From positions 1 to 25,238 of IMG/VR virus record IMGVR_UViG_3300047510_002839: a stretch of 25,238 nucleotides of DNA; one strand, given 5' to 3'. Under the pieces are notes generated by a model. That model was not told the DNA's origin and did no database searches. It saw only the letters and a program-made list of their open reading frames with translations. The first letter of the stretch is position 1. Each line of letters begins with the position of its first letter. This document shows positions 5,046 through 24,230 of this stretch, piece after piece. This stretch comes from a virus. Made by a program: the position numbers and the translations under genes.

Positions 5046-5056
5046 ATTTCTAAAAA

Positions 5057-5839: not shown

Positions 5840-5862
5840 ATCTTATTGCTTTTTATTATGTA

Positions 5863-7044
5863 TTATAGCACGGAATCATCGTATTTAAGTGCTGCCATAT
5901 GACTATATCCAGAACTCACTTTTTTCCAGTTATTTCCTCCGGCAAATGTGGTAACTGGAGTAGAAATTTTAGTATTAGTTGAAATACGATTTCCAAGTTT
6001 TCCACTAAATTCCGAACCCCAAGTCCATAAGGTTCCATCAGCCTTAATTGCTGCGGTATTTTCAAATCCACAACTTACTTGTTTCCAGTTAGTTCCTCCA
6101 GCAAATGTGGTAACTGGAGTGGATCTATCAGTCAAACCATTAGTTCCAAGTTTTCCGTCAAATCCATATCCCCAAGTCCACAGTGTTCCGTCGGTTTTGA
6201 TTGCTGCCGTGTTGTTACCTCCAGCACTTACTTGTTTCCAGTTAGTTCCTCCAGCAAATGTGGTAACTGGAGTGGATCTATCAGTCAAATCATTAGTTCC
6301 GAGAGCACCATTATATGCTCCACCCCAAGTCCATAAGGTTCCATCAGTTTTGATTACAGTAGTATGATATCCTCCACAACTTACTTGTTTCCAGTCTGTT
6401 CCTCCGGCAAATGTTGTGATTGGAGTTGATACAGTACCTGTTGTAATTCCATTTCCAAGTCGCCCCCGAAGTGAATTACCCCAAGTCCATAAGGTTCCAT
6501 CAGTCTTGATTGCTGTTGTATGTCGAATTCCAGTACTTACTTGTTTCCAGTCTGTTCCTCCAGCAAATGTGGTAACTGGAGTGGAGCTATTAGTCAAACC
6601 ATTAGTTCCAAGTCGTCCATAACCTCCATTACCCCAAACCCATAAGGTTCCGTCGGTCTTGATTGCTACTGTACAAAGTCTAGCAGCACTTACTTGTTTC
6701 CAATTAGTTCCTCCAGCAAAAGTAGTGACCGGAGTGGAATTGATGAAGTTTACAGAAGCATTTCCATTTATCCCATAAAAACCATATCCCCAGGACCATA
6801 GAGTTCCATCAGTTTTAATTGCCGCAGTATGATATCCTCCGGCACTAATTTCTTTCCAATTAGTTCCTCCTGTAAATGTAGTTACTGGAGTAGAAAAGAC
6901 ATTTATAGAAGTATTGCCTAATTGTCCTTCGCCTGCCGATCCCCAACCCCACAAATTTCCATTACGAAATAAATCTGCAGTAATAAAAATATCATCAAAA
7001 CTATAATCAAGTCCGTTTTGTCTGAAGTTATAAAATGTTGGCAT
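5863..7044 (-). CDS. RCC1-repeat protein, single seven-bladed propeller
   Basis: The 393-residue product has a 30-residue N-terminal lead followed by exactly seven RCC1-like units of about 52 residues. Each unit runs from LWxWG through a variable loop, STPVTTFAGGTNWKQVS and HTAAIKTDG. The first unit starts with the degenerate NLWGWG. The last ends early as AALKYDDSVL, as expected if N- and C-terminal strands close one propeller. The units share sequence with the giant proteins at 11384-18259 and 19035-24230 but lack their two variant unit types. The ribosome site is unusual: the leader before the ATG is pyrimidine-rich (TTCTTCTCCCCA). There is no signal peptide or membrane segment. It is probably a structural or receptor-binding protein; its place among enzyme genes rather than the fibre block is notable. 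Confidence 0.87.
   Translation of the reverse strand: MPTFYNFRQNGLDYSFDDIFITADLFRNGNLWGWGSAGEGQLGNTSINVFSTPVTTFTGGTNWKEISAGGYHTAAIKTDGTLWSWGYGFYGINGNASVNFINSTPVTTFAGGTNWKQVSAARLCTVAIKTDGTLWVWGNGGYGRLGTNGLTNSSTPVTTFAGGTDWKQVSTGIRHTTAIKTDGTLWTWGNSLRGRLGNGITTGTVSTPITTFAGGTDWKQVSCGGYHTTVIKTDGTLWTWGGAYNGALGTNDLTDRSTPVTTFAGGTNWKQVSAGGNNTAAIKTDGTLWTWGYGFDGKLGTNGLTDRSTPVTTFAGGTNWKQVSCGFENTAAIKADGTLWTWGSEFSGKLGNRISTNTKISTPVTTFAGGNNWKKVSSGYSHMAALKYDDSVL
5866..6954 (-). repeat. Seven tandem RCC1-like units (about 52 codons each)
   Basis: Seven in-frame units, counted by LWxWG and [ND]WK motifs. The DNA of the cores is strongly conserved between units while the loop between LG and STP changes. Adjacent units near 6100-6300 share a long near-identical block (variable segments GTNGLTDRS and GTNDLTDRS). 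Confidence 0.88.
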
Positions 7045-7057
7045 TGGGGAGAAGAAA

Positions 7058-7065
7058 TATTTTTA
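7058..7065 (-). promoter_or_regulatory. Weak candidate late promoter (TAAAAATA)
   Basis: The octamer differs from NATAAATA at one position. It overlaps the TAA of the upstream gene and lies 13 bases before the RCC1 ATG at 7044. Both features match the better promoters in this window (12 bases before the ATG at 19014, and overlap with the stop at 11384). It is kept only as a candidate. Confidence 0.3.
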
Positions 7066-7422
7066 CTTGGAAATAACTATTGGCGTATTCATTTTTTCAC
7101 TCCAATTGTTTAACCAATCCACCATTTCATCACTTATCTTTTTATTATTTATTGGAAGAACCTTTAGATATTGACCCATATGATTAGTTTCAACAGAAAT
7201 TAATACATTACACTTATCCGGTCTCATTTCTTCAGGTAATATATGTTGACTCCAGGCACACTGATAAGTTCTACAAACCTCTGGTCGTCCTTTGTGAACA
7301 CCACAACCACCATCTTCTAAAAATTTACAAGATTTTCCACACCCAAATTCCCATCCAAAAGCATCACCAACTAACCAAGAACAGCAAGCGGTGCAATCAC
7401 CACAAGATCTAAACTGTGACAT
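7063..7422 (-). CDS. YkgJ-family cysteine-cluster protein
   Basis: A 119-residue protein with nine cysteines in the YkgJ-type pattern: CGDCTACC at 7-14, CGKSC at 28-32, CGVH at 40, and RPEVCRTYQC at 46-55. Proteins of this family are thought to bind zinc or an iron-sulfur centre through these cysteines; the biochemical role is not established. After residue 60 the tail is predicted alpha/beta without cysteines. It has one of the strongest ribosome sites in the window (GGGAGGTAG about 4 bases before ATG), inside the end of the preceding gene, which it overlaps by 14 bases. Neighbours are glycosyltransferase-like genes upstream and the seven-unit RCC1 gene downstream. A helper role for metal-dependent enzymes is conceivable, but that is a guess. 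Confidence 0.82.
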   Translation of the reverse strand: MSQFRSCGDCTACCSWLVGDAFGWEFGCGKSCKFLEDGGCGVHKGRPEVCRTYQCAWSQHILPEEMRPDKCNVLISVETNHMGQYLKVLPINNKKISDEMVDWLNNWSEKMNTPIVISK

Positions 7423-8065
7423 AATCTACCTCCCTATAAAAATATTGATATGGTTCATAATCACCTGGTTGATATAAAGATTTCATGTTTCCATTTCCGG
7501 TTCCAATCCAGAACTCTCTATCTAATCTGAAATCGGAAGTCAAAAAAGAATCATCTAATTGATTTATATAAGAAGCATTAGCCCACCAAAAGTTCCCTAC
7601 AAAATGCTTTGTTCCTGCTTTCTCCCAAGATTGTCTACCATCACTCCAAGTTGTTGGTCCTAAAATCTTAAGATTACTTCCTACAGCATCATATTCGTCT
7701 AACTGCTCAACACAATCTTTCCACCGATCAATCACAAAATGTTCCATCATTAGTCTCCAACTCTCACCATTCATACTCTGATGAGTCAATCCTTTCATAT
7801 GAAAATAGAGAACTTTATAATCACTATTTTCTTTACAAAAATCTCTTAAAGAAATTAACGTTTCTGTTTCTTCTTTCCAATTCTCATTTATCTTTACCGT
7901 TGCATTTTCAGGAAGATTGAAAAGTTCTTTATCACCATTTAAACCAAAATGAATATGATTTGCTTTTTGTATTAAACCAGATGTATAAAGCCTATGAACC
8001 TGGGATTGGTACATGAACGCACCAAAAGAAAGTTGAGAGATATGATAGAAGATTGCTATTTTCAT
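7409..8065 (-). CDS. Glycosyltransferase-like protein (GNFWWA family)
   Basis: A 218-residue protein. KVLYFHMKGLTHQ (about residues 84-96), HFVGNFWWANASYIN (154-168) and REFWIG (183-188) recall a family found in phages and in bacterial polysaccharide loci and usually regarded as glycosyltransferase-like. I do not see a clear DxD; D126 in EYDAVGSN may be the equivalent. A role as a sugar transferase is inferred from this resemblance and from the neighbouring GT genes. The ATG overlaps the TGA of the upstream gene as ATGA (8065-8062), with AGGAT just before it as ribosome site. It overlaps the cysteine-cluster gene downstream by 14 bases. No signal peptide or membrane segment. Confidence 0.68.
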   Translation of the reverse strand: MKIAIFYHISQLSFGAFMYQSQVHRLYTSGLIQKANHIHFGLNGDKELFNLPENATVKINENWKEETETLISLRDFCKENSDYKVLYFHMKGLTHQSMNGESWRLMMEHFVIDRWKDCVEQLDEYDAVGSNLKILGPTTWSDGRQSWEKAGTKHFVGNFWWANASYINQLDDSFLTSDFRLDREFWIGTGNGNMKSLYQPGDYEPYQYFYREVDYVTV

Positions 8066-8841
8066 ATCCTATACTTAACCCCTTCCATTCCTTTAACAAC
8101 ATTTAATCCAAGATTTGGAATAGTAATTATATTTTTTTTATTCAAAAACCGATATAAGGAATGCTCAATATCAGTTCCGGCAGTATACTGCATCATTCTT
8201 TCCAGATATACAAATGCTTTTTCAAGTGAAGATACTGCCTCATAAAACAGTGATCTATCAAAAGACCACAATCCAGTCACCATCATTCCTTTGGCACCAT
8301 AAAGATAAGCATAGACATTTTCCAACTCTTTCTCATCAAAGTTTTCTTGTTCTTCTGTCAGATAATCGTATTTTTTAATCACATAATAATTTTCCAGAAA
8401 TTTACTTTCATAATCTTTAATATCAAAATAATCATTTAAAGTATATCTCCCCGTCAATTTAAAAACTCTTTGACTGTCATTGAACAAATTATGCTGCTGA
8501 ACAAAGTAAAGAGTATTCAGTAGACCCCTTGTTTCCAATAAAGATTTTCCGTATGTAATATACTTAGAATCCTTTTGAATATTCGCATAAAGTGCTTTCA
8601 ATCCAGGTTCATCATAAAACTCCAGAAATAAATCACACTCTTTTCTTAAGATCTCTTTATGTCTTTCTTCTATAGATCTGGAAGAACATTCAAATAATAT
8701 GATATAAGATTCTGGTGCTTTTTCTCTAACCGACTTAATTGTTTCCAGTGTCTGTTCAAATCTCTGCTCCTCTGTATAGGCACTAAACTTATCTTCCTGA
8801 AAATGCTTCAGTGCGGATCCAACTAAAAATAAAAACTTCAT
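8062..8841 (-). CDS. Uncharacterised protein, possibly glycosyltransferase-like
   Basis: A 259-residue protein starting MKFLFLVGSALKHF. I chose ATG 8841 because it makes an ATGA overlap with the upstream TGA and follows GAGAGG; an in-frame start 24 bases earlier would lie inside the upstream gene. Visible features are an N-terminal strand and helix, SYIILFECSSRS (second strand), RVFKLTGRYTLNDYFD (about residues 125-140) and TAGTDIEHSLYRFLN (about 220-234). The KLTGRY stretch followed by acidic residues is a pattern I associate with sugar-transferase-like proteins of polysaccharide loci, but I cannot place the family firmly. It sits between two glycosyltransferase-like genes, so a glycan role is likely by context only. 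Confidence 0.65.
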   Translation of the reverse strand: MKFLFLVGSALKHFQEDKFSAYTEEQRFEQTLETIKSVREKAPESYIILFECSSRSIEERHKEILRKECDLFLEFYDEPGLKALYANIQKDSKYITYGKSLLETRGLLNTLYFVQQHNLFNDSQRVFKLTGRYTLNDYFDIKDYESKFLENYYVIKKYDYLTEEQENFDEKELENVYAYLYGAKGMMVTGLWSFDRSLFYEAVSSLEKAFVYLERMMQYTAGTDIEHSLYRFLNKKNIITIPNLGLNVVKGMEGVKYRI

Positions 8842-9560
8842 AGCATACCTCTCTTCCAAGCCCATAATTGTTCATCGATTTGGTTCTCTTCACGGTAAGA
8901 ACCTTTTTCTATTTTATCCGTCCACATTTGAAGAAGATTAATTTTATCCTCTTCACTCACACAGAACTCATGATTAAACCAGTAGTTCATTTTCCCGTCT
9001 TTGGGAATTAACTGATAAAAACTTTCAACCTTTAATCCATACTTTGCAATATTACGACTCACCAAATAATCATCAAGAATATGGTGAGGTTCGTATCCAA
9101 AATTCTTTTCTAGATCCATAGGATTAATTTGATCTACAAATTGCTCTGGATCTTCATGTGGTTTCCAAGCATGTCTTGTCCAATCACTAAAGATACAAAC
9201 CCAGGTGCAGGCAGCAATGTTTCTTCCATCTCTTCTTACATAGTTATTGTGCTTGAAACGAAATGGATAGTAGTCATGACGATTAAAAATCACACAGTCT
9301 TTATCATAAATCTCTGTTAAGTCGGGACAGTTTGGATGTATCAAAGCATCCGCATCAATAAAAATTGTCCAATCATAATTTGCTCCAATCTCATACAACT
9401 GGAACTTTTCCATATTGCAAGAGAGATGTGGAAACTTTCTTTCGTTGATGATAATAAAATCTGCACCAATCTTTTCAGCATACTTCCTCATGTAAGGATA
9501 TGTGAATTTAGTGATTTCTTTATTGTAATTAATGTCCAGTGTAACGAGTGCTTTCTTCAT
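8838..9560 (-). CDS. GT8-like glycosyltransferase
   Basis: A 240-residue protein with the plan of a small GT-A enzyme. KKALVTLDINYNKEITKFTY is the N-terminal nucleotide-binding region. EKFQLYEIGANYDWTIFIDA then DALIHPN (about residues 51-77) holds the DxD motif (D69, D71) that binds metal and nucleotide-sugar. HHILDDYLVSRNIAKYGLKV (about 159-178) supplies the later acidic pair, and NYWFNHEF a possible late His. It probably transfers a hexose; donor and acceptor are unknown. The ATG at 9560 lies 32 bases inside the end of the preceding oxygenase gene, with GGA just upstream. Its own stop overlaps the next start by four bases. Confidence 0.78.
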   Translation of the reverse strand: MKKALVTLDINYNKEITKFTYPYMRKYAEKIGADFIIINERKFPHLSCNMEKFQLYEIGANYDWTIFIDADALIHPNCPDLTEIYDKDCVIFNRHDYYPFRFKHNNYVRRDGRNIAACTWVCIFSDWTRHAWKPHEDPEQFVDQINPMDLEKNFGYEPHHILDDYLVSRNIAKYGLKVESFYQLIPKDGKMNYWFNHEFCVSEEDKINLLQMWTDKIEKGSYREENQIDEQLWAWKRGML

Positions 9561-11353: not shown

Positions 11354-11377
11354 AAAGAATATTATGTTAATTTGTTG

Positions 11378-11385
11378 TATTTATC
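11378..11385 (-). promoter_or_regulatory. Putative T4-type late promoter (GATAAATA)
   Basis: The minus strand reads TGATAAATAC: the TGA stop of the giant RCC1 gene runs straight into an exact NATAAATA octamer. It lies 24 bases before the ATG at 11353, which would give a leader of roughly 15-20 bases. It would drive the middle enzyme cluster. Confidence 0.65.
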
Positions 11386-14300
11386 AAAAATCTACGGACT
11401 TGATTGCTGCTGCATTATTTGGACCAATACTTACTTGTTTCCAATCAGTTCCACCTGCAAATGTGGTAATCGGAGATAATATAGAACCTATTATTGTCCC
11501 GTTTCCAAGTTTACCGGCTCCGGCAAGACCCCAAGTCCATAGAGTTCCATCAGTTTTGATTGCTCCCGTTGAATACGAACTACTCACTTGTTTCCAATTA
11601 GATCCTCCTGCAAATGTGGTGGATGGAGTACTAACAACATTTGAATAATTAACTCCCAAGGATGCTGTAACTCCAAAAACATATAAAGATCCATTATTTT
11701 TAAGTGCTAAAGTACTTGATGCAGATGTAGAAACTTGTACCCAATCAGTTCCACCAGCAAATGTAGTTACCGGAGTAGATGAATTGTCTGTAGTGTTTAT
11801 ACCTAATACTCCAGAATAATTATACCCCCAAGTCCATAGAGTTCCATCAGTCTTAATTGCTGCTGTAGATGAATAACGTGAATCCGATAGTTCCCCTCCA
11901 CAACTTACTTGTTTCCAGTTAGTTCCACCGGCAAAAGTAGTGATTGGAGTAACTACATCTGTAAATGTATTAGATTCACCATTTCCAAGTTCTCCGTTTC
12001 TATTCGTTCCCCATAACCATAAGGTTCCATCAGTCTTAACTGCCGCAATGTGACTTTGTCCAGAACTTACTTGTTTCCAATTAGTTCCACCGGCAAAAGT
12101 AGTGATTGGAGTAAGAGATTGAAATCCATAACCAAGATCTCCAAGTTGACCATAAAAATTAGCACCCCAAACCCATAATGTCCCATCAGTTTTGATTGCT
12201 GCGGTTGTATATCCTCCACAACTTATTTGTTTCCAGTTGGTTCCTCCGGCAAATGTGGTGACTGGAGTATTAACTTCAATATCATTATTATTACCAACTT
12301 GCCCATTTATATTATAACCCCATAACCATAAAGTGCCATCGGTCTTAATTGCTCCAGTTGCAGAATATCCAGTACTCACTTGTTTCCAATTAGATCCTCC
12401 CGCAAATGTAGTGATTGGAGTAAGCACATTTGCAGATGAAACTTTATTATTACCAAGTCTACCATCAAATTCCACTCCCCAAGTCCATAGAGTTCCATCG
12501 GTCTTAATTGCTGCCGTAGTATAATATCCTGCTACTATTTGCTTCCAATTTGTCCCCCCTGTGAATGTGGTAACTGGTGTAAAAGCATTATTCGTATTAT
12601 TTGTACCCAATGATCCATATTGATTTGTGCCCCAAACCCATAAAGTTCCATCGGTCTTAATTGCCATCGATGCATAATCAAACTCAAAACTAAATCCTGA
12701 TGAAGATGATATAGTATAAAGATCTTCTGGATTTGATGTTGGCGTATTTGCCCAGTTAGTTCCACCGGCAAAAGTAGTTATTGGAGTACTAGTATATTGC
12801 TCAAATAATAATGATCCAATTCCTAAATTCGAATCATAACCCCAAGTCCATAGAGTTCCATCTGTCTTGATTGCTACTGTATGATTGTATCCAACATCCA
12901 CTTGTTTCCAATTAGTTCCACCGGCAAAGGTAGTTACTGGAGTTGATCTCTCTTCTGTTTTAGTATTTCCAAGTTCTCCTTTTGCATTAAGACCCCAAGT
13001 CCATAGAGTTCCATCATTTTTAACTGCTGCCGTATTTCTTCCCGAAATACTTACTTGTTTCCAGTTGGTTCCACCAGCAAAGGTAGTTGCAGGAATATTT
13101 CCATTACTAGTAGTTGAATTAGTATTCCCTATTAAATAATTATTTTCACCAAATATATACAATTCCTTATTAATTCCATCATCTTTAAGTGCTATTGTAT
13201 GAGAAAGACTGGTAAAGACTTGTTTCCAATTAGTTCCCCCGGCAAATGTGGTGACTGGAGTAGATCTATTAGTTATGCCCGTATTTCCAAGTTGTCCAGA
13301 ATTTCCATAACCCCAAGTCCATAAGGTTCCATCAGTCTTAATTGCTGCCGTATGAAGTTCTCCAGCACTGACTTGTTTCCAGTTGGTTCCTCCGGCAAAT
13401 GTAGTAACAGGAGTGGAGTTGATAATTGAAGTTGAGGCATTTCCAAGTCGTCCACTAATTCCATTACCCCAAGTCCACAAGGTTCCATCGGTCTTGATTG
13501 CTGATGTATGAAGAGCCCCAGCACTCACTTGTTTCCAGTTGGTTCCTCCGGCGAATGTGGTGACTGGAGTAAGTCTATCACCAGTTACAATACCATTTCC
13601 AAGTCTTCCATAAGTTCCACGACCCCAAGTCCATAAGGTTCCATCGGTCTTAATTGCTGCTGTATGAGCATCTCCAGAACTTACTTGTTTCCAATTGGTT
13701 CCTCCGGCAAATGTTGTGGTTGGAGTAAATCTATTAAATGAAGAAAACCCACCAAGAGCCCCAGTAGTTCCATTACCCCAAACCCATAAAGTTCCATCAT
13801 TTTTAACTGCTGCTGTATGCCTAGATCCAGCACTTACTTGCTTCCAGTTGACATTATTATCAATAAGAGTAGGAACAAAAAATCGTATTGATCCTGTTCC
13901 AGTATATGTAATATCTCCAAATGAATATAATCTTTTATTTACTCCATCATCAAAAAGTGCTACTGTATGATTGGTGCCAGAACTTACTTGTTTCCAGTTG
14001 GTTCCTCCGGCAAATGTGGTAATAGGAGTGGAGTTGATAATTGAAGTTGAGGCATTTCCAAGTCGTCCACTAATTCCATTACCCCAAGTCCACAAGGTTC
14101 CATCGGTCTTAATTGCAGCATTATGTCCAGGTCCAACATTTATTTGTTTCCAGTTGGTTCCTCCGGCAAAGGTAGTAACAGGAGTGGATACATTGGTTGT
14201 TACTGCATTTCCAAGTCTTCCGGAATTTCCATTACCCCAAGTCCAAAGAGTTCCATCAGTTTTGATTGCTGATGTATGTAAACTTCCGGAACCTACTTGT

Positions 14301-17300
14301 CTCCAATCAGTTCCTCCAGTAAATGTAGTGACTGGAGTGGATCTACTAGTCGTGTCCGCATTTCCAAGTCTCCCAAAAGATCCATAACCCCAAGTCCATA
14401 AGGTTCCATCGGTCTTGACTGCTACTGTATGTTGATTTCCAGAACTCACTTGTTTCCAGTTGGTTCCTCCAGTAAATGTTGTTTTTGGTTCATTATCATT
14501 TAGAATATTTACTGCTAATAAATTAGTATTTCCCCAAACATAAAGTTGCTTATTTACTCCATCATCTCTCAATGCTACTGTATGGTCATTACCAGAACTT
14601 ACTTGTTTCCAGTTAGTTCCTCCGGCAAATGTAGTAACAGGAGTGGATACACTAAGACCTACCGCTACCAAATTTCCAAGTTTTCCAGAACCTCCAAATC
14701 CCCAGGTCCAAAGAGTTCCATCGGTTTTGACTGCTGCTGTATGGTCATTACCAGAACTCACTTGTTTCCAATTAGTTCCTCCAGCAAATGTAGTGACTGG
14801 AGTAGATCTATTACCTGTTATAATGCCATTTCCAAGTCGTCCATTAACTCCATTACCCCAAACCCATAAGGTTCCATCGGTTTTAACTGCTGCCGTCTGA
14901 TTAATACCAGAACTGACTTGTTTCCAGTCGGTTCCTCCGGCAAAGGTAGTAACTGGTGTTAGTTTATTGGCAGTATCAGTATTCAATCCAAGTTGTCTAT
15001 TATTATTAATACCCCAAGTCCATAAGGTTCCATCGGTTTTGATTGCTACCGTATGAAATGCTCCAGCACTAACTTGTTTCCAATTAGTTCCTCCAGAGAA
15101 TGTAGTAACTGGTGTTAGGTTATTTGATTGATTATTAGTTCCAAGTCTTCCAAAATTTCCTGTACCCCAAACCCATAAGGTTCCATCAGTCTTAATTGCA
15201 CAAACGTGGTTGTATTTGCATGAAACTTGTTTCCAATTAGTTCCTCCAGCAAATGTAGTAATTGGAGTGGATATATTAATATTAATACTTGAATTAATGC
15301 CAAGTCTACCAAAATTATCAGAACCATTTGAACCCCATCCCCATAAAGTTCCATCGGTTTTAATTGCAAAAATACTTTCTCCGAAAGGAGTTGCTTCCGT
15401 ATAAACATTACAAGAAATTTGTTTCCAGTTAGTGCCTCCAGAAAATGTAGTGACGGGAGTTATTTTACTAAATAAATCATTAGTTCCGAGTTGACCATAG
15501 ACATTATCTCCCCAAGTCCATAAGGTTCCATCGGTCTTGATCGCCGCCGTATGTTTACCCCCGGCACTTAAGGTATAAAGATCTTCCGGTTCTACTGTAG
15601 GAGTATCTGCCCAGTTATTTCCTCCGGCAAAGGTAGTTACTGGAGTACTTATTGCAGATATAAATTGCGGTCTTCCAAGTTGTCCATTAGTTCCACTACC
15701 CCAAGTCCATAAAGTTCCATCAGTCTTGATTGCCGAAGTATGATCATTACCAGAACTCACTTGTTTCCAATCGGTTCCTCCGGCAAATGTAGTGATTGGA
15801 GTAGATCTAGACCCTGTTGCAATTCTATTTCCGAGTCTTCCATTAAATCCATTACCCCAAGTCCATAGGGTTCCATCAGTCTTGATTGCTGATGTATGAG
15901 AATTTCCACCACTTATTTGTTTCCAGTTGGTTCCTCCGGCAAATGTGGTTACTGGAGTAGATATATTACCTGATGCGACTGCATTTCCGAGTGTTCCTAA
16001 AGATGCACTACCCCAAGCCCATAGGGTTCCATCAGTCTTAATTGCAGAAGTATGTAAATTTCCAGCACTTAAGGTATAAAGATCTTCTGGTTCTACTGTA
16101 GGAGTATCTGCCCAGTTGTTTCCTCCAGCAAAGGTAGTTGCCGGAGTACTAATATTAAAAATAACAATACCAACATCTTGACTTCTTCCCCATGTCCACA
16201 AAGTTCCATCGGTTTTGATTGCTGCTGTATGATTGTATCCAACACTTATTTGTTTCCAGTTGATTCCTCCAGTAAATGTAGTGACTGGTGTAAAAGTATA
16301 CTCTATATTATCACCTATTCCCAAATAATAAGACCCATTCCCCCAAACCCATAGAGTTCCATCAGTCTTGATTGCGGCAGATCTTTCTCTCGATATAGAT
16401 AAAGTATAAAGATTTTCCGGATCAGTATCTATATCTGCCCAGTTGGTTCCTCCGACAAATGTGGTAACAGGAGTGGATCTATCGGTTATATCTGCATTTC
16501 CAAGACTTCCATATAATCCATTACCCCAAGTAAAAAGTTCTTTATTAACTCCATCATCCCTTAATGCCATTGTACGAGCACTTCCCGAACTTACTTGTTT
16601 CCAATTAGATCCTCCTGCAAATGTGGTGATTGGAGTGGATCTAAAAGTTACTTGGAAATTCCCAAGTGCCCCCAAACCACCATCACCCCAAGTCCATAAG
16701 GTTCCATCAGTCTTGATTGCTGCTGTATGAAAACCTCCAGCATTGACTTGTTTCCAATTAGTTCCCCCGGCAAATGTGGTGACTGGAGTAGATCTATTAG
16801 TTATGCCCGTATTTCCAAGTTGTCCAGAATTTCCACCACCCCAAGTCCATAGGGTTCCATCGGTCTTGATTGCAGTTGTATGTTCACCTCCACCACTTAC
16901 TTGTCTCCAATTGGTTCCTCCAGCAAAGGTAGTGACTGGAGTGGATATATTACCCGTTGTTACTGCATTTCCAAGTCGTCCAGAAGTTCCATATCCCCAA
17001 GTCCATAAGGTTCCATCAGTCTTAATTGCTGTGGTATAACGAAGTCCAGAACTTACTTGTTTCCAATTGGTTCCACCGGCAAATGTTGTGGTTGGAGTGG
17101 ATCTATTGCCTGTTATTATTGCATTTCCAAGTTGGCCATAATTTCCTACTCCCCAAGTCCATAGAGTTCCATCAGTCTTGATTGCTGATGTATGATAAAG
17201 TCCGGAGCTTACTTGTTTCCAGTTCGTTCCCCCAGTAAATGTAGTGACGGGAGTGGATTTATTGGTTATATCTGCATTTCCAAGTTGCCCATCTCCCCCA

Positions 17301-18259
17301 AAACTCCAAGTCCATAGGGTTCCATCGGTCTTAATTGCTGCGGTATGAAGATCCCCACCACTTACTTGCCTCCAGTTGGTTCCTCCAGTAAATGTAGTAA
17401 CTGGAGTGGATGCATTGCCTGTCGTTACTGCATTTCCAAGTCTTCCATATAATCCATTACCCCAAGTCCATAGAGTTCCATCAGTTTTGATTGCTGCTGT
17501 ATGTTGAAATCCAGCACTTAAGGTATAAAGATTTTCTGGATCTGTATCAACAATTGCCCAGTTAGTTCCTCCAGAAGATACGGTGATTGGTGTTGATATA
17601 TAAAAATCTGGATATGGTCTACCAAGGTTAGAAGAAGCAGAGCTACTACCCCAAGTCCATAAGGTTCCATCAGTCTTAATTGCTGCTATTTCATCACTTG
17701 AAAGACTTACTTGTTTCCAACTTCCTTGGGTATATAATGTAGTAACTGGATTTACTGATCCTAAAACAGCATTATTTCCAAAAACTCTGGAAAAATTAGA
17801 ACCCCAAAACCATAGAGTTCCATCAGTTTTGATTGCTGCTGTACTAAATTGTCCAGTACTTACTTGTTTCCAATTAGTTTCACCAGAAAAAGCAGTAATT
17901 GGAACGCTTCTGGGAACAGAAGATGAAGAATTAAATTGAACTGAAGTAACAATTGATCCCCAAGACCATAAGGTTCCATCAGTTTTTATTGCGAATGTAT
18001 TATTTGCACCAGTACTTACTTGTTTCCAATCAGTTCCTCCAGTAAATGTAGTGACTGGAGTAGATATACTACCTGTTGCAATTCTATTTCCGAGTCTTCC
18101 TGAACCTGCTTGTCCCCACATCCAAAGTTCTGGAGGAATTCCAATTTGCTGACCAATCTCCGGATAGACACTGATCAAATAATCTTTGGTAATTAATTTA
18201 GTTCCTAAGTCAATACCATCACTATCTCTAAAATTAGTTTGAACTCTATTGGAAGACAT
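11384..18259 (-). CDS. Giant RCC1-repeat structural protein, 42 units (six propellers)
   Basis: A 2291-residue protein. Residues 1-44 are a lead (FRDSDGIDLGTKLITKDYLI and on) of the sort I recall at the start of cyanophage tail-fibre proteins. From residue 45 to the end it is tandem RCC1-like units averaging 53-54 residues: LWTWG, variable loop, STPVTTFAGGTNWKQVS, SG..HTAAIKTDG. I count 42 units, i.e. six sets of seven. Five units carry an acidic insert ending PE(D/N)LYT(L/I) (near residues 235, 595, 710, 880, 1855). Four have AL(R/F/K)DDG(V/I)NK in place of AIKTDG. The first unit begins PPELWMWG and the last ends AAIKSVDF. No signal peptide or membrane segment. It is probably a long virion fibre or adhesin. 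No ribosome site is evident; it follows 18265-19014 by five bases. Confidence 0.9.
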   Translation of the reverse strand: MSSNRVQTNFRDSDGIDLGTKLITKDYLISVYPEIGQQIGIPPELWMWGQAGSGRLGNRIATGSISTPVTTFTGGTDWKQVSTGANNTFAIKTDGTLWSWGSIVTSVQFNSSSSVPRSVPITAFSGETNWKQVSTGQFSTAAIKTDGTLWFWGSNFSRVFGNNAVLGSVNPVTTLYTQGSWKQVSLSSDEIAAIKTDGTLWTWGSSSASSNLGRPYPDFYISTPITVSSGGTNWAIVDTDPENLYTLSAGFQHTAAIKTDGTLWTWGNGLYGRLGNAVTTGNASTPVTTFTGGTNWRQVSGGDLHTAAIKTDGTLWTWSFGGDGQLGNADITNKSTPVTTFTGGTNWKQVSSGLYHTSAIKTDGTLWTWGVGNYGQLGNAIITGNRSTPTTTFAGGTNWKQVSSGLRYTTAIKTDGTLWTWGYGTSGRLGNAVTTGNISTPVTTFAGGTNWRQVSGGGEHTTAIKTDGTLWTWGGGNSGQLGNTGITNRSTPVTTFAGGTNWKQVNAGGFHTAAIKTDGTLWTWGDGGLGALGNFQVTFRSTPITTFAGGSNWKQVSSGSARTMALRDDGVNKELFTWGNGLYGSLGNADITDRSTPVTTFVGGTNWADIDTDPENLYTLSISRERSAAIKTDGTLWVWGNGSYYLGIGDNIEYTFTPVTTFTGGINWKQISVGYNHTAAIKTDGTLWTWGRSQDVGIVIFNISTPATTFAGGNNWADTPTVEPEDLYTLSAGNLHTSAIKTDGTLWAWGSASLGTLGNAVASGNISTPVTTFAGGTNWKQISGGNSHTSAIKTDGTLWTWGNGFNGRLGNRIATGSRSTPITTFAGGTDWKQVSSGNDHTSAIKTDGTLWTWGSGTNGQLGRPQFISAISTPVTTFAGGNNWADTPTVEPEDLYTLSAGGKHTAAIKTDGTLWTWGDNVYGQLGTNDLFSKITPVTTFSGGTNWKQISCNVYTEATPFGESIFAIKTDGTLWGWGSNGSDNFGRLGINSSININISTPITTFAGGTNWKQVSCKYNHVCAIKTDGTLWVWGTGNFGRLGTNNQSNNLTPVTTFSGGTNWKQVSAGAFHTVAIKTDGTLWTWGINNNRQLGLNTDTANKLTPVTTFAGGTDWKQVSSGINQTAAVKTDGTLWVWGNGVNGRLGNGIITGNRSTPVTTFAGGTNWKQVSSGNDHTAAVKTDGTLWTWGFGGSGKLGNLVAVGLSVSTPVTTFAGGTNWKQVSSGNDHTVALRDDGVNKQLYVWGNTNLLAVNILNDNEPKTTFTGGTNWKQVSSGNQHTVAVKTDGTLWTWGYGSFGRLGNADTTSRSTPVTTFTGGTDWRQVGSGSLHTSAIKTDGTLWTWGNGNSGRLGNAVTTNVSTPVTTFAGGTNWKQINVGPGHNAAIKTDGTLWTWGNGISGRLGNASTSIINSTPITTFAGGTNWKQVSSGTNHTVALFDDGVNKRLYSFGDITYTGTGSIRFFVPTLIDNNVNWKQVSAGSRHTAAVKNDGTLWVWGNGTTGALGGFSSFNRFTPTTTFAGGTNWKQVSSGDAHTAAIKTDGTLWTWGRGTYGRLGNGIVTGDRLTPVTTFAGGTNWKQVSAGALHTSAIKTDGTLWTWGNGISGRLGNASTSIINSTPVTTFAGGTNWKQVSAGELHTAAIKTDGTLWTWGYGNSGQLGNTGITNRSTPVTTFAGGTNWKQVFTSLSHTIALKDDGINKELYIFGENNYLIGNTNSTTSNGNIPATTFAGGTNWKQVSISGRNTAAVKNDGTLWTWGLNAKGELGNTKTEERSTPVTTFAGGTNWKQVDVGYNHTVAIKTDGTLWTWGYDSNLGIGSLLFEQYTSTPITTFAGGTNWANTPTSNPEDLYTISSSSGFSFEFDYASMAIKTDGTLWVWGTNQYGSLGTNNTNNAFTPVTTFTGGTNWKQIVAGYYTTAAIKTDGTLWTWGVEFDGRLGNNKVSSANVLTPITTFAGGSNWKQVSTGYSATGAIKTDGTLWLWGYNINGQVGNNNDIEVNTPVTTFAGGTNWKQISCGGYTTAAIKTDGTLWVWGANFYGQLGDLGYGFQSLTPITTFAGGTNWKQVSSGQSHIAAVKTDGTLWLWGTNRNGELGNGESNTFTDVVTPITTFAGGTNWKQVSCGGELSDSRYSSTAAIKTDGTLWTWGYNYSGVLGINTTDNSSTPVTTFAGGTDWVQVSTSASSTLALKNNGSLYVFGVTASLGVNYSNVVSTPSTTFAGGSNWKQVSSSYSTGAIKTDGTLWTWGLAGAGKLGNGTIIGSILSPITTFAGGTDWKQVSIGPNNAAAIKSVDF
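11387..18127 (-). repeat. 42 tandem RCC1-like units (about 160 bp each)
   Basis: In-frame tandem array covering almost the whole gene. Core segments, for example the 20-mer CCAAGTCCATAAGGTTCCAT on the plus strand and close variants, recur in most units, while the 30-50 bp loop segment differs. One 87-bp block is identical at 13409-13495 and 14024-14110. Others are shared with the 19035-24230 gene (101 bp, 16923-17023 with 20392-20492; 86 bp, 14550-14635 with 20797-20882). Confidence 0.92.
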
Positions 18260-18264
18260 AGTTT

Positions 18265-19014
18265 TTAATTATTATTAAAATCTGAATTTAATTCGGAACT
18301 GGAATTGGATTCATATAAACTCAACTTTTTTTTATTTTTTGATTCCATATTTCTTTTCATTCTCTCCATAACTTTATCTTCAAGCAAAACAACATTATAA
18401 ACATCATCAATAGTTTCACATTCATCTATTTCGTTTATTTTTTGCAATTCCCAATCAAATGCCTGCTGAACTACTACATCAATTTCTCCAATAATTTGTT
18501 GAAGATTTTGTGGAGTAATTGATGCCCAAGTATTTTTAAATTTATAATTACAAGTCCCAGTGAATGAAGATAATTTCGAAGTTAGCAATAATCTCTCTTC
18601 TCTTGAAGTTGATATTTCTACAGGATTTCCATTAACAAAAATTTTAGCAACTGTATTTTCTTTATTTTTTCTTATTGGTGCAATTTCTTTTTTACGAAGT
18701 TCTTTGACTTCTTCCAAAGTTTTATCTATAATAGTATAAGTTAATTTAACACTGACCGGAACATTATTTTCTTCTACAATTTCCCAGGCGTAATTGCCAA
18801 TATTATGATATTTAAGATCATGTATTGGTATTTCTTTTTCTATCGAAACAAGATGACTTAAACCATCCGAAAAATGAATTGGAAGATCTCTAAAACTTTG
18901 AGAAGATATACGATCTTCAAGTTCAAGATCTTCCAATTCGCTATTAATCATACGCACATTTAGTCCCATTGGTCCAAGTATTAATGAGTTATTATGAATT
19001 AATGCGATTTCCAT
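18265..19014 (-). CDS. Tail-fibre-assembly-like protein (DUF4376-like C-terminal region)
   Basis: A 249-residue protein. The first 100 residues are mostly strand-rich (MEIALIHNNSLILGPMGLNV, then KYHNIGNYAWEIVEENNVPV). The region about 120-205 has FVNGNPVEISTSREERLLLT, NTWASITPQNLQQIIGEIDV and DWELQKINEIDECETIDDVY. This layout (short strand, helix with an Arg/Glu core, W-x-x-[IV]TP-x-N, long helix) resembles DUF4376-type proteins encoded beside phage tail fibres and thought to help their assembly. The C-terminus is low complexity (SNSSSELNSDFNNN). It lies between two giant RCC1 genes and has its own late promoter at 19027-19034. It is probably a chaperone or minor fibre component for the 2291-residue protein that follows by five bases. 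Confidence 0.65.
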   Translation of the reverse strand: MEIALIHNNSLILGPMGLNVRMINSELEDLELEDRISSQSFRDLPIHFSDGLSHLVSIEKEIPIHDLKYHNIGNYAWEIVEENNVPVSVKLTYTIIDKTLEEVKELRKKEIAPIRKNKENTVAKIFVNGNPVEISTSREERLLLTSKLSSFTGTCNYKFKNTWASITPQNLQQIIGEIDVVVQQAFDWELQKINEIDECETIDDVYNVVLLEDKVMERMKRNMESKNKKKLSLYESNSSSELNSDFNNN

Positions 19015-19026
19015 ATTTTTTTAAAT

Positions 19027-19034
19027 TATTTATC
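19027..19034 (-). promoter_or_regulatory. Putative T4-type late promoter (GATAAATA)
   Basis: The minus strand carries an exact NATAAATA octamer directly after the stop of the 1731-residue gene and only 12 bases before the ATG at 19014, leaving a nearly leaderless message. It would drive 18265-19014 and the giant gene after it, since the five-base gap between those two holds no promoter. Confidence 0.6.
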
Positions 19035-22000
19035 TTATGAGAGTGGATATTCTGCATTAATTCCAGATTGTACTGCTGATACATGTATCCTTCCAAAGGA
19101 CACTTGTTTCCAGTTGGTTCCTCCAGCAGTCGTAGTGATTGGAGTGTATGCTCTATTTTGAAAACTCTGTATAGTATTATTTCCTAACTGACCATCACCA
19201 TTATAACCCCAAGTCCATAAGGTTCCATCAGTCTTGATTGCTGCCGTATTTCCATATCCACCATCCACTTGCTTCCAATTAGTAGCATTACCATCAACTT
19301 CTACTGGAACCCAATTCTGAGGATTACCAAGTCCAAGTTCATAATCATCAAAATTAGATCCCCAAACATATAGTCTTTTATTTACACCATCATCATTAAG
19401 AGCAATTTGCACACCACCAGAACTATGCACTTGTTTCCAATTTGTTCCTCCAAGAAATGTCGTAATTGGTGTAGGTACACGTCCATCTACTACATCGGTT
19501 CCCATTATTATCCCATTCCCAAGTTCTCCATATCCTCCATAACCCCAAGTCCATAGGGTTCCATCAGTTTTTATTGCGAATGTATTATTATTTCCAGCAC
19601 TGACTTGTTTCCAGTTGGTTCCTCCGGCAAATGTAGTGATCGGAGTAGATGTAACGCCGATAAAAGAACCTGAAGCATCATCATTAATTCCAGGTTGAAT
19701 GTCAATTTGATTTGATATATTTTCATAAAAAACCATTTCCCAAACTAAAGTTGGTGATCCGAGTATCCCATTTTGAAAAGAAATATGACCTTCAAATCTT
19801 ACACGATAAGTTCTATTTGGAGAAGTTCCTTCCGTACCATAATAAATTCTTTGGGCAGATCTATCAGCGGTTGAAATTTGTATTTTTGGAATTGGTGGAG
19901 TTGCAGTTGTATAATTCCAATTAATAGTTTGATCATAATCATCGGCAGGTTTTGTTCCAAAAGTTATATAAGAATTAGTACTTACATAAATTTTATTATA
20001 CGATACTCCATTATAAGAAATATTAAAGGGTAAAGTTAATTCCCAAAATCCATCATCATCAGGGGCATATTGAGGACTAGGATTTTTAAAATCTGGAGTT
20101 GTAGATTGACTCAAAGATGCTGGACCTAATATCAATGTTGAAATGTTAGTTAAAATCCCACCAGAACCATCTGTTATTATTCTTTGACCATTGTTAGGTA
20201 CGGGATTAAAACTAGTTGTTCCAGATAATATAGTAGTTGTATTACATATTGCAGATAATCCAGCAACAACAAAAGAAAAAATTCCAAGTTGTCCTTCAGT
20301 ATTACTACCCCAAGTCCATAAGGTTCCATCAGTCTTAACTGCTGCCGTAAAATTACTTCCAGAACTTACTTGTTTCCAGTTGGTTCCTCCGGCAAAGGTA
20401 GTGACTGGAGTGGATATATTACCCGTTGTTACTGCATTTCCAAGTCGTCCAGAAGTTCCATATCCCCAAGTCCATAAGGTTCCATCAGTCTTGATTGCCG
20501 AAGTATGATCATTACCAGAACTCACTTGTCTCCAATCGGTTCCTCCGGCAAATGTAGTGATTGGAGTGGATCTACTAGTCGTGTCCGCATTTCCAAGTCT
20601 CCCAAAAGCTCCATAACCCCAAGTCCATAAGGTTCCATCGGTCTTTACTGCTGTAGTATGATTACCACTAGAACTTACTTGTTTCCAGTTGGTGCCTCCG
20701 GCAAAGGTAGTAATAGGAGTAAAGACTGATGGTGTAACATTTATGATAGAATTTCCTAATCTTCCTTGGTTTGCATTTCCCCAAACATAAAGTTGTTTAT
20801 TTACTCCATCATCTCTCAATGCTACTGTATGGTCATTACCAGAACTTACTTGTTTCCAGTTAGTTCCTCCGGCAAATGTAGTGACTGGAGTGGATCTACT
20901 GGTTGTGTCCGCATTTCCAAGTTTTCCACTATTTCCAGCACCCCAAGTCCATAAGGTTCCATCAGTCTTAACTGCTGTAGTATAATTACTACCAGAACTC
21001 ACTTGTTTCCAGTTGGTTCCTCCGGCAAATGTAGTAATAGGAGTGGACCTGGTACTTATAACTGAGGCATCTCCAATTTGACCATTACCCCCCAAACCCC
21101 AAGTCCAAAGAGTTCCATCGGTCTTAATTGCTACTGTATGAGCATCTCCACAACTTACTTGTTTCCAGTCGGTTCCTCCGGCAAAGGTAGTAACTGGAGT
21201 GGTTCTATTAATTAGAGATGCATTTCCAAGTCGTCCATTACTTGCAGTACCCCAAGTCCATAAAGTTCCATCGGTTTTGATTGCTGCAGTATGAGCATTT
21301 CCAGAACTTACTTGTTTCCAATTAGTAAACCATCCGTAAACCTCTATAGGATACTCAAATAGTGTTTCCCCAGTTCTAGAATTTCCAAGTCTTCCATTAG
21401 AAGTATTACCCCACACATAAAGTTGTTTATTCACTCCATCATCTCTAAGTGCCATTGTAAAAGAAAATGCACTCACTTGTTTCCAGTTGGTTCCTCCGGC
21501 AAAGGTAGTAACTGGTGTAGATCTATTTACTAGATCATTTATTCCAAGTTCCCCTCTGGAATTGTAACCCCAAGTCCATAAGGTTCCATCGGTCTTAATT
21601 GCTGCTGTATGAACATTTCCACAATCAACTTGTTTCCAGTCAGTTCCTCCTGCAAATGTGGTAACTGGTGTTAATGGACTAGATGCACCACCACTTCCAA
21701 TTTGTCCAAAAGTTATTTGTCCCCAAGCCCATAATGTTCCATCAGTTTTAACTGCTGCAGAATGACTTAATCCACCGCTTGCTTGTTTCCAGTTGGTCCC
21801 TCCAGCAAATGTGGTAATAGGAGTGGACCTATTAGATATGGCATTATTACCAAGTTTTCCAGAAATTCCCTCACCCCAAACCCATAAGGTTCCATCAGTC
21901 TTAACTGCTGTAGTATGATTATTACCACATCCAACATATTTCCAGTCAGTTCCTCCGGCGAATGTTGTAACTGGAGTAGATACGATGCCACTTATTGATG

Positions 22001-24230
22001 AATTTCCAAGTCTACCATTACCGGTAACACCCCAAGTCCATAAGGTTCCATCGGTTTTGATTGCTGCAGTATGAGCATTTCCAGAACTTACTTGTTTCCA
22101 ATTAGTTCCACCGGAAAATGTAGTAATTGGGGTGGATACATCAATTGTTTGAGAATTTCCAAGTTGACCGCTAGATCCGCCAGATCCAAATCCCCAAGTC
22201 CATAAAGTTCCATCAGTCTTAACTACTGCCGTAAAATTACTTCCAGAACTTACTTGTTTCCAGTTGGTCCCTCCAGCAAATGTGGTGACTGGAGTGGAAT
22301 TGTTAATTAAAGTTGAGGCATTTCCAAGTTGTCCATTAATTCCATTACCCCAAGTCCATAAGGTTCCATCGGTCTTGATCGCCGCCGTATGATTACCCCC
22401 GGCACTTAAGGTATAAAGATCTTCTGGTTCTACTGTAGGAGTATCTGCCCAGTTGTTTCCTCCGGCAAAGGTAGTTACTGGAGTAATTCTGCTCCCCAAA
22501 GATAAGGTTCCAAGTCGTGCATTAGTTCCAGCACCCCAAGTCCAAAGAGTTCCATCAGTTTTGATTGCTGATGTGTGAAATGTCCCAGCACTTACTTGTT
22601 TCCAATTGGTTCCTCCGGCAAAGGTAGTAACTGGAGTGGACTTATTATTATCTAAGACATTATTACCAAGTTTTCCGTTACTTGCCTCACCCCAAACCCA
22701 TAAAGTTCCATCAGTCTTAACTACTGCCGTAAAATTACTTCCAGAACTTACTTGTTTCCAGTTGGTCCCTCCAGCAAATGTGGTGACTGGAGTGGAATTT
22801 CCAAGTTGTCCATTAATTCCATTACCCCAAGTCCATAAGGTTCCATCGGTCTTGATCGCCGCCGTATGATTACCCCCGGCACTTAAGGTATAAAGATCTT
22901 CTGGTTCTACTGCAGGAGTATCTGCCCAGTTGTTTCCTCCGGCAAAGGTAGTTACTGGTGTCTCTACTTGAGATGCAGTATACCTTCCAAGTCTTCCATT
23001 AATTCCAGATCCCCAAGTCCATAAAGTTCCATCAGTCTTGATTGCCGATACAAAAGAAGATGAAGTGCTTATTTGTTTCCAATTAGTTCCACCAGAAAAT
23101 ACAGTAATTGGAGTGTATGAAAGATCTGATTGATTGTTTCCAAGTTGCCCACTAAAACCAGATCCCCAAATCCATAAAGTCCCATCAGTCTTGATTGCCG
23201 CACCACCATTAGCAGCAGAATTCAAAGTATAAAGATCTTCTGGATTTGTTGTAGGAGTATCTGCCCAGTTGTTTCCTCCGGCAAAGGTAGTTACTGGAGT
23301 AAATCTTCTTCTAAGTGGCCCATTTCCTAACTGACCATACAAAGAATTTCCCCAAGTCCAAAGAGTTCCATCAGTCTTGATTGCTGCTGCATGATTTGCA
23401 CCAGCACATACTTGTTTCCAGTTAGTTCCACCAACAAAAGTGGTAACAGGGGTAGATCTAGAAATTGAATCATTTGTCCCCAATTGTCCATCTGGATTAA
23501 ATCCATTAAATCCCCAAGTCCAAAGAGTTCCATCAGTCTTGATTGCTGCAGTAAATGCTCTTCCGGGAGATACTTGCTTCCAATCATTTCCCCCAGCAAA
23601 GGTGGTAACTGGAGTAAGTCTGCTATCATCACTTCCATTTCCAAGTTGATCATCACCTCCCTCACCCCAAGTCCATAAGGTTCCATCGGTTTTAATTGCC
23701 GCTACATGAAAAGCACCTCCAGAAACCGACCTCCAATTAGTTCCACCGGCAAAGGTAGTGACAGGAGTGCTTAAATGTATAAAAGATGACAGATTAACTC
23801 CCGCTATTCCAATATATCCCCAAGTCCATAAAGTTCCATCATTTTTGATCGCAAATGAGGCACTTCTACTAGTTGTAATTTGCTTCCAATCAGTTCCACC
23901 AGCAAAGGTGGTAATTGGAGTAGATTTATTGTTAGTGGTATCTCCATTACCCAAAAATCTAGCTGTACCCCAAGTCCATAGAGTTCCATCAGTTTTAATA
24001 GCAGCAGAATGTTCGTATCCAAGACTAACTTGTTTCCAATTAGTCCCACCGGCAGTAGTCGTAACTGGAGTTTGTCTACTTGAATTTATTACACCAATAC
24101 CTAGTCCATGACTGTAAGCATCAGATCCCCATATCCACAACTGATCTCCAATGTACTGATCAATCAACCAGTACTCATTTACAAAATAATTTTCAAGATC
24201 TCCTTCTGGTGAGAAAAACTGATTAGGCAT
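19035..24230 (-). CDS. Large RCC1-repeat structural protein, 28 units plus inserted domain
   Basis: A 1731-residue protein. Residues 1-30 are a lead (MPNQFFSPEGDLENYFVNEY and on), followed from residue 31 by RCC1-like units. I count 28 (four sets of seven), each with one LWxWG and one [ND]WK or NWAD motif. Three units have the acidic (A/T)(V/N)(E)PEDLYTL insert and three have DDGVNK in place of KTDG. Inside unit 25, between LG and TSTPITTF, is a 209-residue non-RCC1 domain (19656-20282). The ribosome site is GGAG, 10 bases before ATG 24230; the start overlaps the fibre gene stop by eight bases. The two homologous units at 22200-22481 and 22698-22958 are a recent duplication. It is probably a virion fibre or adhesin expressed with the S74 fibre gene. 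Confidence 0.9.
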   Translation of the reverse strand: MPNQFFSPEGDLENYFVNEYWLIDQYIGDQLWIWGSDAYSHGLGIGVINSSRQTPVTTTAGGTNWKQVSLGYEHSAAIKTDGTLWTWGTARFLGNGDTTNNKSTPITTFAGGTDWKQITTSRSASFAIKNDGTLWTWGYIGIAGVNLSSFIHLSTPVTTFAGGTNWRSVSGGAFHVAAIKTDGTLWTWGEGGDDQLGNGSDDSRLTPVTTFAGGNDWKQVSPGRAFTAAIKTDGTLWTWGFNGFNPDGQLGTNDSISRSTPVTTFVGGTNWKQVCAGANHAAAIKTDGTLWTWGNSLYGQLGNGPLRRRFTPVTTFAGGNNWADTPTTNPEDLYTLNSAANGGAAIKTDGTLWIWGSGFSGQLGNNQSDLSYTPITVFSGGTNWKQISTSSSFVSAIKTDGTLWTWGSGINGRLGRYTASQVETPVTTFAGGNNWADTPAVEPEDLYTLSAGGNHTAAIKTDGTLWTWGNGINGQLGNSTPVTTFAGGTNWKQVSSGSNFTAVVKTDGTLWVWGEASNGKLGNNVLDNNKSTPVTTFAGGTNWKQVSAGTFHTSAIKTDGTLWTWGAGTNARLGTLSLGSRITPVTTFAGGNNWADTPTVEPEDLYTLSAGGNHTAAIKTDGTLWTWGNGINGQLGNASTLINNSTPVTTFAGGTNWKQVSSGSNFTAVVKTDGTLWTWGFGSGGSSGQLGNSQTIDVSTPITTFSGGTNWKQVSSGNAHTAAIKTDGTLWTWGVTGNGRLGNSSISGIVSTPVTTFAGGTDWKYVGCGNNHTTAVKTDGTLWVWGEGISGKLGNNAISNRSTPITTFAGGTNWKQASGGLSHSAAVKTDGTLWAWGQITFGQIGSGGASSPLTPVTTFAGGTDWKQVDCGNVHTAAIKTDGTLWTWGYNSRGELGINDLVNRSTPVTTFAGGTNWKQVSAFSFTMALRDDGVNKQLYVWGNTSNGRLGNSRTGETLFEYPIEVYGWFTNWKQVSSGNAHTAAIKTDGTLWTWGTASNGRLGNASLINRTTPVTTFAGGTDWKQVSCGDAHTVAIKTDGTLWTWGLGGNGQIGDASVISTRSTPITTFAGGTNWKQVSSGSNYTTAVKTDGTLWTWGAGNSGKLGNADTTSRSTPVTTFAGGTNWKQVSSGNDHTVALRDDGVNKQLYVWGNANQGRLGNSIINVTPSVFTPITTFAGGTNWKQVSSSGNHTTAVKTDGTLWTWGYGAFGRLGNADTTSRSTPITTFAGGTDWRQVSSGNDHTSAIKTDGTLWTWGYGTSGRLGNAVTTGNISTPVTTFAGGTNWKQVSSGSNFTAAVKTDGTLWTWGSNTEGQLGIFSFVVAGLSAICNTTTILSGTTSFNPVPNNGQRIITDGSGGILTNISTLILGPASLSQSTTPDFKNPSPQYAPDDDGFWELTLPFNISYNGVSYNKIYVSTNSYITFGTKPADDYDQTINWNYTTATPPIPKIQISTADRSAQRIYYGTEGTSPNRTYRVRFEGHISFQNGILGSPTLVWEMVFYENISNQIDIQPGINDDASGSFIGVTSTPITTFAGGTNWKQVSAGNNNTFAIKTDGTLWTWGYGGYGELGNGIIMGTDVVDGRVPTPITTFLGGTNWKQVHSSGGVQIALNDDGVNKRLYVWGSNFDDYELGLGNPQNWVPVEVDGNATNWKQVDGGYGNTAAIKTDGTLWTWGYNGDGQLGNNTIQSFQNRAYTPITTTAGGTNWKQVSFGRIHVSAVQSGINAEYPLS
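19038..24140 (-). repeat. 28 tandem RCC1-like units interrupted by one domain
   Basis: In-frame units of about 160 bp, interrupted at 19656-20282. 22200-22301 is identical to 22698-22799 (102 bp). 22323-22435 is identical to 22800-22912 (113 bp). The second copy lacks the 21 bp at 22302-22322. Confidence 0.92.
19656..20282 (-). other. Inserted beta-rich domain, about 209 residues, within RCC1 array
   Basis: No RCC1 motifs occur here. The visible pattern is FWELTLPFNISYNGVSYNKI, IYVSTNSYITFG, NRTYRVRFEGHISFQNG, LVWEMVFYE, then NQIDIQPGINDD. Alternating hydrophobic strands with STNSYITFG followed by a late VWEMVFYE strand resemble NIDO-like beta-sandwich domains of surface proteins; this is a resemblance only. 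The preceding stretch (GQRIITDGSGGILTNISTLI) may be a separate small strand-rich linker. It replaces the loop of unit 25, the fourth blade of the last predicted propeller. Confidence 0.65.

Follow-up and report, generated by a model that had tools for sequence, protein, structure and literature searches.

Three RCC1-like genes in the neighbourhood of a tail fibre gene

The window analysed here is a whole stretch of 25,238 bases from the record of a cyanobacterial virus. All on its minus strand, it carries three genes, hereafter g1, g2 and g3, whose products match both the Pfam RCC1 repeat and the RCC1-like domain. PF00415 is found above its curated cut-off in each of them, with E values of 5e-54 for g1, 3e-253 for g2 and 6e-185 for g3, and their PHROG matches are phage families called 'regulator of chromosome condensation'. 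The product of the gene that precedes g3 matches Pfam Peptidase_S74 and the PHROG tail fibre / long tail fibre distal subunit. The coordinates of these genes and of the features described below are collected in Table 1.

Among annotated phages, the sole DNA match is the Synechococcus phage S-SRM01; the aligned part covers 14% of the query at about 76% identity. S-SRM01 and the window share the gene order long tail fibre distal subunit, RCC1, hypothetical, RCC1, TPR and 2OG oxygenase, which is followed after further genes by RCC1 and sulfotransferase. Beside and between the fibre genes, positions 232-11353 of the window hold a cassette of sulfotransferase-, 2OG-oxygenase- and glycosyltransferase/methyltransferase-like genes together with TPR. 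This cassette shows partial synteny with S-SRM01 and possibly modifies the virion or the host surface.

Table 1. Genes, predicted rings and their loop marks in the window, and brackets read in homologues
Feature	Positions	Strand	Description
g1	5863..7044	-	393 aa; single RCC1 propeller, 7 units; Pfam WD40_RLD/RCC1; type A N-terminus, MPTFYNF..DYSFDDIF..LFRNGN
g2	11384..18259	-	2291 aa; 42 RCC1 units; type B N-terminus; five of each mark, OPEN and CLOSE; parsed as six seven-blade rings, nested or inserted
g2 putative inserted ring, units 34'-41	11600..12721	-	contiguous; OPEN 12710-12754, CLOSE 11672-11710; 7 units
g2 putative inserted ring, units 11'-32	13067..16411	-	OPEN 16400-16441, CLOSE 13148-13186; 21-14 = 7
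g2 putative second-level ring, units 13'-27	13850..16081	-	OPEN 16070-16114, CLOSE 13916-13954; 14-7 = 7
g2 putative innermost ring, units 16'-23	14462..15580	-	contiguous; OPEN 15569-15613, CLOSE 14531-14569; 7 units
g2 putative inserted ring, units 4'-11	16445..17530	-	contiguous; OPEN 17519-17560, CLOSE 16523-16561; 7 own units
Protein between g3 and g2	18265..19014	-	249 aa; weak tail-fibre match (phrog_10508, E 2e-6)
g3	19035..24230	-	1731 aa; 28 RCC1 units; type C N-terminus; three of each mark, OPEN and CLOSE; parsed as four seven-blade rings in concentric nesting
g3 putative first-level ring, units 6'-27	19281..23234	-	OPEN 23223-23267, CLOSE 19359-19397; 21-14 = 7
g3 putative second-level ring, units 8'-22	20691..22895	-	OPEN 22884-22928, CLOSE 20778-20816; 14-7 = 7
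g3 putative innermost ring, units 11'-18	21324..22418	-	contiguous; OPEN 22407-22451, CLOSE 21408-21446; 7 units
Tail fibre / S74 chaperone protein, C-terminal part	24223..25236	-	directly upstream of g3; open at the window edge
L016 and L067-14			brackets (4,11)
L020			brackets (6,20)(8,15)
L021			bracket (6,13), twice
L044 and L066			brackets (3,17)(6,13)
L101			brackets (3,10)(13,20), side by side

Unit numbers in the window and in a sister contig

Units were counted with a position-specific profile of the 52-residue unit, each protein being aligned cyclically. This recount gave 7 units for g1 and 42 for g2. For g3 the profile reads 29, because a domain of about 160 residues interrupts unit 25 and splits it, and the count resolves to 28. 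The same g2 protein with 42 units is found on a sister contig (L096, IMG/VR contig 3300047564_004945) together with a g3 protein of 1738 aa and 28 units. The original prediction of 7, 42 and 28 RCC1 units is thus borne out. It had also assumed one LWxWG and one [ND]W motif per unit, which does not hold: plain tallies for g1, g2 and g3 are 7/36/25 for LWxWG and 7/41/30 for [ND]W, the LWxWG counts of 36 and 25 being too low because of variant units.

The domain of about 160 residues lies in the C-D loop of unit 25 of g3, at about 19731-20279 of the window (..GFWELTLPFNISYNG..SPNRTYRVRFEG..NQIDIQ..). A homologue of this domain occurs in another unit (24) of the 42-unit g2-type gene of a different phage (L067, 9995-17674). 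Unit 9 of the window g3 carries an in-frame deletion of 7 residues relative to L096:589-5805 (1731 versus 1738 aa) and is, outside this deletion, identical to unit 12.

Multiples of seven among homologues

Seven is the normal size of one RCC1 propeller. The chance of three multiples of seven had been put at 1 in 343, a figure made after the fact, and homologues were therefore counted. They were collected from five IMG/VR scans and one scan aimed at the closing loop, and statistics were computed on the non-redundant complete proteins of the TTFAGG-type family. This set comprises 73 proteins with 7 units and 17 expanded proteins with at least 13. Exact multiples of seven were obtained for 14 of the 17 expanded proteins in a blind count (binomial P 6.5e-10) and for 15 of 17 (P 2e-11) after inspection, when a merged unit in L060 was split; the null assumes residues modulo 7 to be evenly spread. 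The expected excess of sevens among homologues is thus real, although the figure of 1 in 343 was itself post hoc. In a wider census, 162 of 202 protein clusters have 7 units. Divergent RCC1 proteins (from Clostridioides and Brevibacillus phages and from bacteria) were kept out of the statistics, because their end blades and merged units put blind counts off by at least one.

A gene that has 7 units at 21 other loci is reduced to 5 in L012, where two units were lost across a repeat measuring 114 bases in the intact copy. L056 has 6 units versus 7 in near-identical gene copies, and L033 has fewer units than near-identical copies on other contigs. Two further genes bring together the start and end of different RCC1 paralogues: L206:6188-8365 is a chimera with a type A start and a type B end, and L175:3501-4277 has a type B start and a type A neighbour. 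All five look like assembly artefacts. The two chimeras are probably assembly jumps through identical repeats, with real recombination between genes as the alternative. Exceptions still without explanation are L015 (5 units), L022 (13), L147 (3), L105 (27) and L281 (6), as well as S-SRM01 gp335 (L251:10288-11322), which has 6 units in a cultured isolate.

Two loop marks that occur in expanded proteins

Expanded proteins carry two loop marks, OPEN and CLOSE, which are nearly absent from seven-unit proteins: 68 of the 73 seven-unit TTFAGG-type proteins have no mark, and neither mark is found in g1. In the OPEN loop (WADTPTVEPEDLYTLSAG), the A strand is duplicated, with a linker, and NWADTPTVEPEDLYTLSAG stands where NWKQVSAG is usual. 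CLOSE consists of a B-C turn of type ALRDDGVNKQLYVWG where AIKTDGTLWTWG is usual, after which comes a unit whose D strand is degenerate; its junction motif is DDGVNKxLY, x being Q, E or R. The D strands of these closing units are indeed degenerate, with a median of -1.4 versus 33.4 bits (P 9e-12). Both marks lie at D-to-A connections. In the balanced set, n propellers come with n-1 OPEN and n-1 CLOSE.

The mark definitions were derived from the sequences themselves, the discovery set being the window, L016, L020, L021 and L044; L101, L067, L097 and L203 were read only after the marks had been defined. Some CLOSE motifs are missing in L203 and in the 42-unit protein of L067 (L067-42). The latter has five OPEN and three recognisable CLOSE, all three of which pair to seven, and its missing CLOSEs are predicted at units 18 and 41, both among the five weakest D strands of the 42. 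No recognisable marks were found in the divergent expanded proteins L117, L055, L060 and L105, whose counts are 7n or near-7n.

Marks read as brackets delimit groups of seven units

The marks were read as brackets, the last opened being paired with the first closed (LIFO) and nested units being subtracted. With this pairing, exactly seven own units are counted in 20 of 21 brackets, and every outer ring has seven. The sole misfit is the one bracket of L022 (13 units), which holds 6. The parse of g2 is (4 11)(11(13(16 23)27)32)(34 41), in which the ring of units 11'-32 is host to two deeper rings; that of g3 is (6(8(11 18)22)27), and the two proteins have a common relative bracket layout. FIFO pairing of the nested cases gives 9-16 units instead of 7. 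When the same marks were placed at random, an all-seven parse was obtained in 0 of 400,000 trials for g2 and in 27 of 400,000 for g3; the corresponding values are 70/39,900 for each two-insert protein and 7/182 for each one-insert protein.

Blades are interchangeable except for the last

The similarity of units within g2 and g3 shows no clear peak at offsets 7, 14 and 21, and offset comparisons within and between the two proteins revealed neither periodicity nor a copied three-ring cassette. Blades thus appear to be shuffled or converted while the ring number is fixed. In seven-unit proteins, positions 1-6 are indistinguishable (leave-one-out near chance) and only the last unit has a signature. 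An attempt to place the blades of expanded proteins by position profiles from seven-unit proteins failed, because positions 1-6 carry no signature. The last-unit signature is found once, at the very end, in g2, L016, L020, L021, L044 and similar proteins; in L067-42 and L096, a terminal score is also obtained for two units that carry inserted domains. The original prediction that whole propellers are kept despite repeat shuffling stands insofar as totals stay at 7n with interchangeable blades. Free blades 1-6 together with 7n totals fit selection on ring number better than a recent copying of whole propellers.

Predicted structure of a 14-unit homologue

The structure of the 14-unit homologue L016, a protein of 792 aa, was predicted with AF2 from an alignment of 36 rows made of natural 14-unit windows, with L253 left out. 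The model has a pLDDT of 80.7 and a pTM of only 0.69; with only three aligned sequences, pLDDT was 36. Confidence is low at the predicted entry to the inner ring (residues 161-200, pLDDT 61-67) and at its predicted exit (residues 551-570, pLDDT 53-61). Apart from a loop insertion at 361-370, these are the least certain stretches of the protein. The hairpin 371-380, at the boundary between units 7 and 8, is intact with a pLDDT of 91. Foldseek matched the model to UVR8 (4dnv_A; TMt 0.88, rmsd 2.9, 378 columns), the match comprising one ring whose residues are not specified, and to HERC2 (0.82). Since the alignment rows were partly chosen for sharing marks, the model is support and not proof of the ring assignment.

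Rings inserted in rings as the probable architecture

In RCC1 propellers, each repeat spans two blades, contributing strands C and D to one and then A and B to its successor. If the chain begins at C,D and finishes at A,B, its two ends would have to meet in a single ring, and added rings could consequently loop out only at D-to-A connections. We propose that g2 and g3 consist of seven-bladed rings inserted in other rings, and we regard this expansion model as a whole as likely. The products of g1, g2 and g3 would be fibre or adhesin proteins of RCC1-like seven-bladed beta-propellers, g1 forming one ring. Growth of g2 and g3 would have proceeded by insertion of whole seven-blade rings between strand D of blade n and strand A of blade n+1. 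The outermost ring would begin with C,D of its first blade and end with A,B, its chain ends meeting in a 'velcro' closure, while an inserted ring would extend from strand A in blade one to strand D in blade seven. Its entry would be marked by WADTPTVEPED-LYTLSAG and its exit by DDGVNK(Q/E/R)LY with a degenerate last D strand. Such insertions could lie next to one another, follow one another within the same loop, or be placed one within another. As read from the sequences, every additional propeller appears to be lodged in a loop between two blades of another propeller, and the nesting would reach a depth of four rings.

Seven blades are needed for each RCC1 ring, which would explain the grouping of units in sevens. 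Folding would require closed rings of seven blades, so that the total stays locked at 7n however freely individual blades are shuffled or converted; we infer that selection acts on ring closure. The two short loop motifs probably act as brackets that assign blades to rings, forming a protein grammar that reaches depth four while the blades themselves are freely shuffled.

The original prediction had described the three proteins as strings of one, six and four propellers. A row of independent propellers, closed at unit 7, unit 14, unit 21 and so forth, would also give totals that are multiples of seven, and such arrangements do exist: the Chryseobacterium protein L394 (3429 onward) has 28 units with long non-RCC1 linkers after units 7, 14 and 21, and a linker follows unit 7 in phage L130 and unit 14 in L097, the last third of which is beaded. 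However, g2 and g3 have neither a linker nor a C-terminal-like unit at 7, 14 or 21, and a unit resembling a chain end is present only at the very end of each protein. With chains that start at strand C, a boundary between beads would moreover have to split a B-C hairpin of about four residues, and the 7|8 hairpin is intact in the AF2 model of L016. The loop marks sit elsewhere, and they pair as nested sevens. The 'string of beads' reading is thus probably wrong for the window proteins, and we consider it improbable. The linkers of L394, which separate four blocks of seven units, are apparently fibronectin-III-like. In L402 and other Bacteroidetes proteins, A,B come first, and a cut between D and A is possible.

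Had whole propellers been duplicated in tandem recently, without lasting constraint or any particular topology, multiples of seven would be a by-product, and it would be explained why units are highly similar and some near-identical, such as units 9 and 12 of g3. Yet units at offsets 7, 14 and 21 are not clearly more similar than others, blade position is not recoverable, and the marks, though placed at varied distances, pair to seven. The missing seven-unit periodicity largely refutes this scenario, to which we give very little credence. It might finally be argued that short-read assembly sets the unit number and that the three multiples of seven arose by luck or by a counting artefact. Assembly does alter counts, as seen for L012 and L056, but its errors shift them away from 7n and not towards it; the proportion of expanded proteins at 7n and the agreement of the sister contig also speak against this explanation, which is hardly tenable.

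A putative fibre or adhesin role

In addition to the S74 fibre gene that adjoins g3, a fibre context is found in S-SRM01, where genes for the baseplate wedge and the long tail fibre immediately precede the RCC1 orthologues. A seven-unit RCC1 ring is even present within S74 fibre proteins, at L294:5198-12052 and at L323:7649-11002, the latter with collagen repeats. At the sequence level, these two proteins provide direct evidence that RCC1 rings can serve as fibre domains. When virion proteins were searched with the type B N-terminus, only S-SRM01 was retrieved.

Because of the S74 neighbour, the S-SRM01 gene order and the RCC1 rings inside L294 and L323, the putative rings-in-rings proteins g2 and g3, like g1, are most likely fibres or adhesins, with many variable ring surfaces that would face the host, and we infer a receptor-binding role. 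The fibre role proposed earlier thus fits the gene neighbourhood and the relatives. Insertion of rings would enlarge the putative binding surface, and exchange of blades would vary it. If true, the bracket grammar would be a general route to very large branched phage adhesins. PHROG 4219, 7220 and 16766 owe their place in the category of DNA, RNA and nucleotide metabolism to the RCC1 name, and their context suggests that they are fibre proteins. We suggest re-annotating, as probable fibre proteins, those phage proteins that bear the label 'regulator of chromosome condensation'.

Comparison with known propellers

The window proteins show sequence matches to solved UVR8, HERC1, HERC2 and RCC1 chains, and the L016 model fold matches to UVR8 and HERC2. 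Like the propellers of the RCC1-like domain (RLD) family (RCC1, UVR8, HERC1/HERC2, RPGR; PF00415, PF13540, PF25390), they would have seven blades per ring, and both share the unit LWxWG...GxLG...TNWKQVSxG..HTAAIKTDG. The solved RLDs that were matched are single one-ring chains, whereas g2 and g3 have 28-42 units without linkers and with nested marks. In proteins with several RLDs, such as HERC2, the RLDs are separate domains. In DDB1-type interlocked propellers, both chain ends lie in one ring and the other rings lie between them. DDB1 differs from the window proteins in being WD40-like and not RCC1, with three rings, and is not known to have repeated bracket loops or the depth-four nesting proposed here.

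Among phage RCC1 proteins (PHROG 7220, 4219, 16766; S-SRM01 gp335, gp337 and gp344), those of S-SRM01 stand in the gene order of the window. The three S-SRM01 proteins have 6, 7 and 7 units and carry no annotation beyond 'regulator of chromosome condensation'; RCC1 goes unmentioned in the S-SRM01 paper. The original prediction held that propeller 'beads' in phage fibres had not been described. In agreement, neither RCC1 propellers in phage fibres nor their multi-ring forms nor nested propellers were found in the full text of open-licence papers, which is weak evidence.

Globally repetitive beta-propellers form long arrays of near-identical blades, among which RCC1/BLIP-II is the third most populated group (PMC9218822). 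Pereira and Lupas (2022) described their amplification as proceeding without a counting system, with odd totals such as 15 and 47; the array of 47 blades could not be partitioned, and AlphaFold struggled with it (PMC9218822). In contrast to these arrays, those of the window have a partition that can be read from loop marks, and their totals are 7n. The division into rings, which is hard to read from the sequence of near-identical blades, is here legible and, as read from the marks, equal to seven and nested. With its members of 7, 14, 21, 28 and 42 units, the series makes the folding rules of repeat proteins, domain insertion and the diversification of phage adhesins testable.
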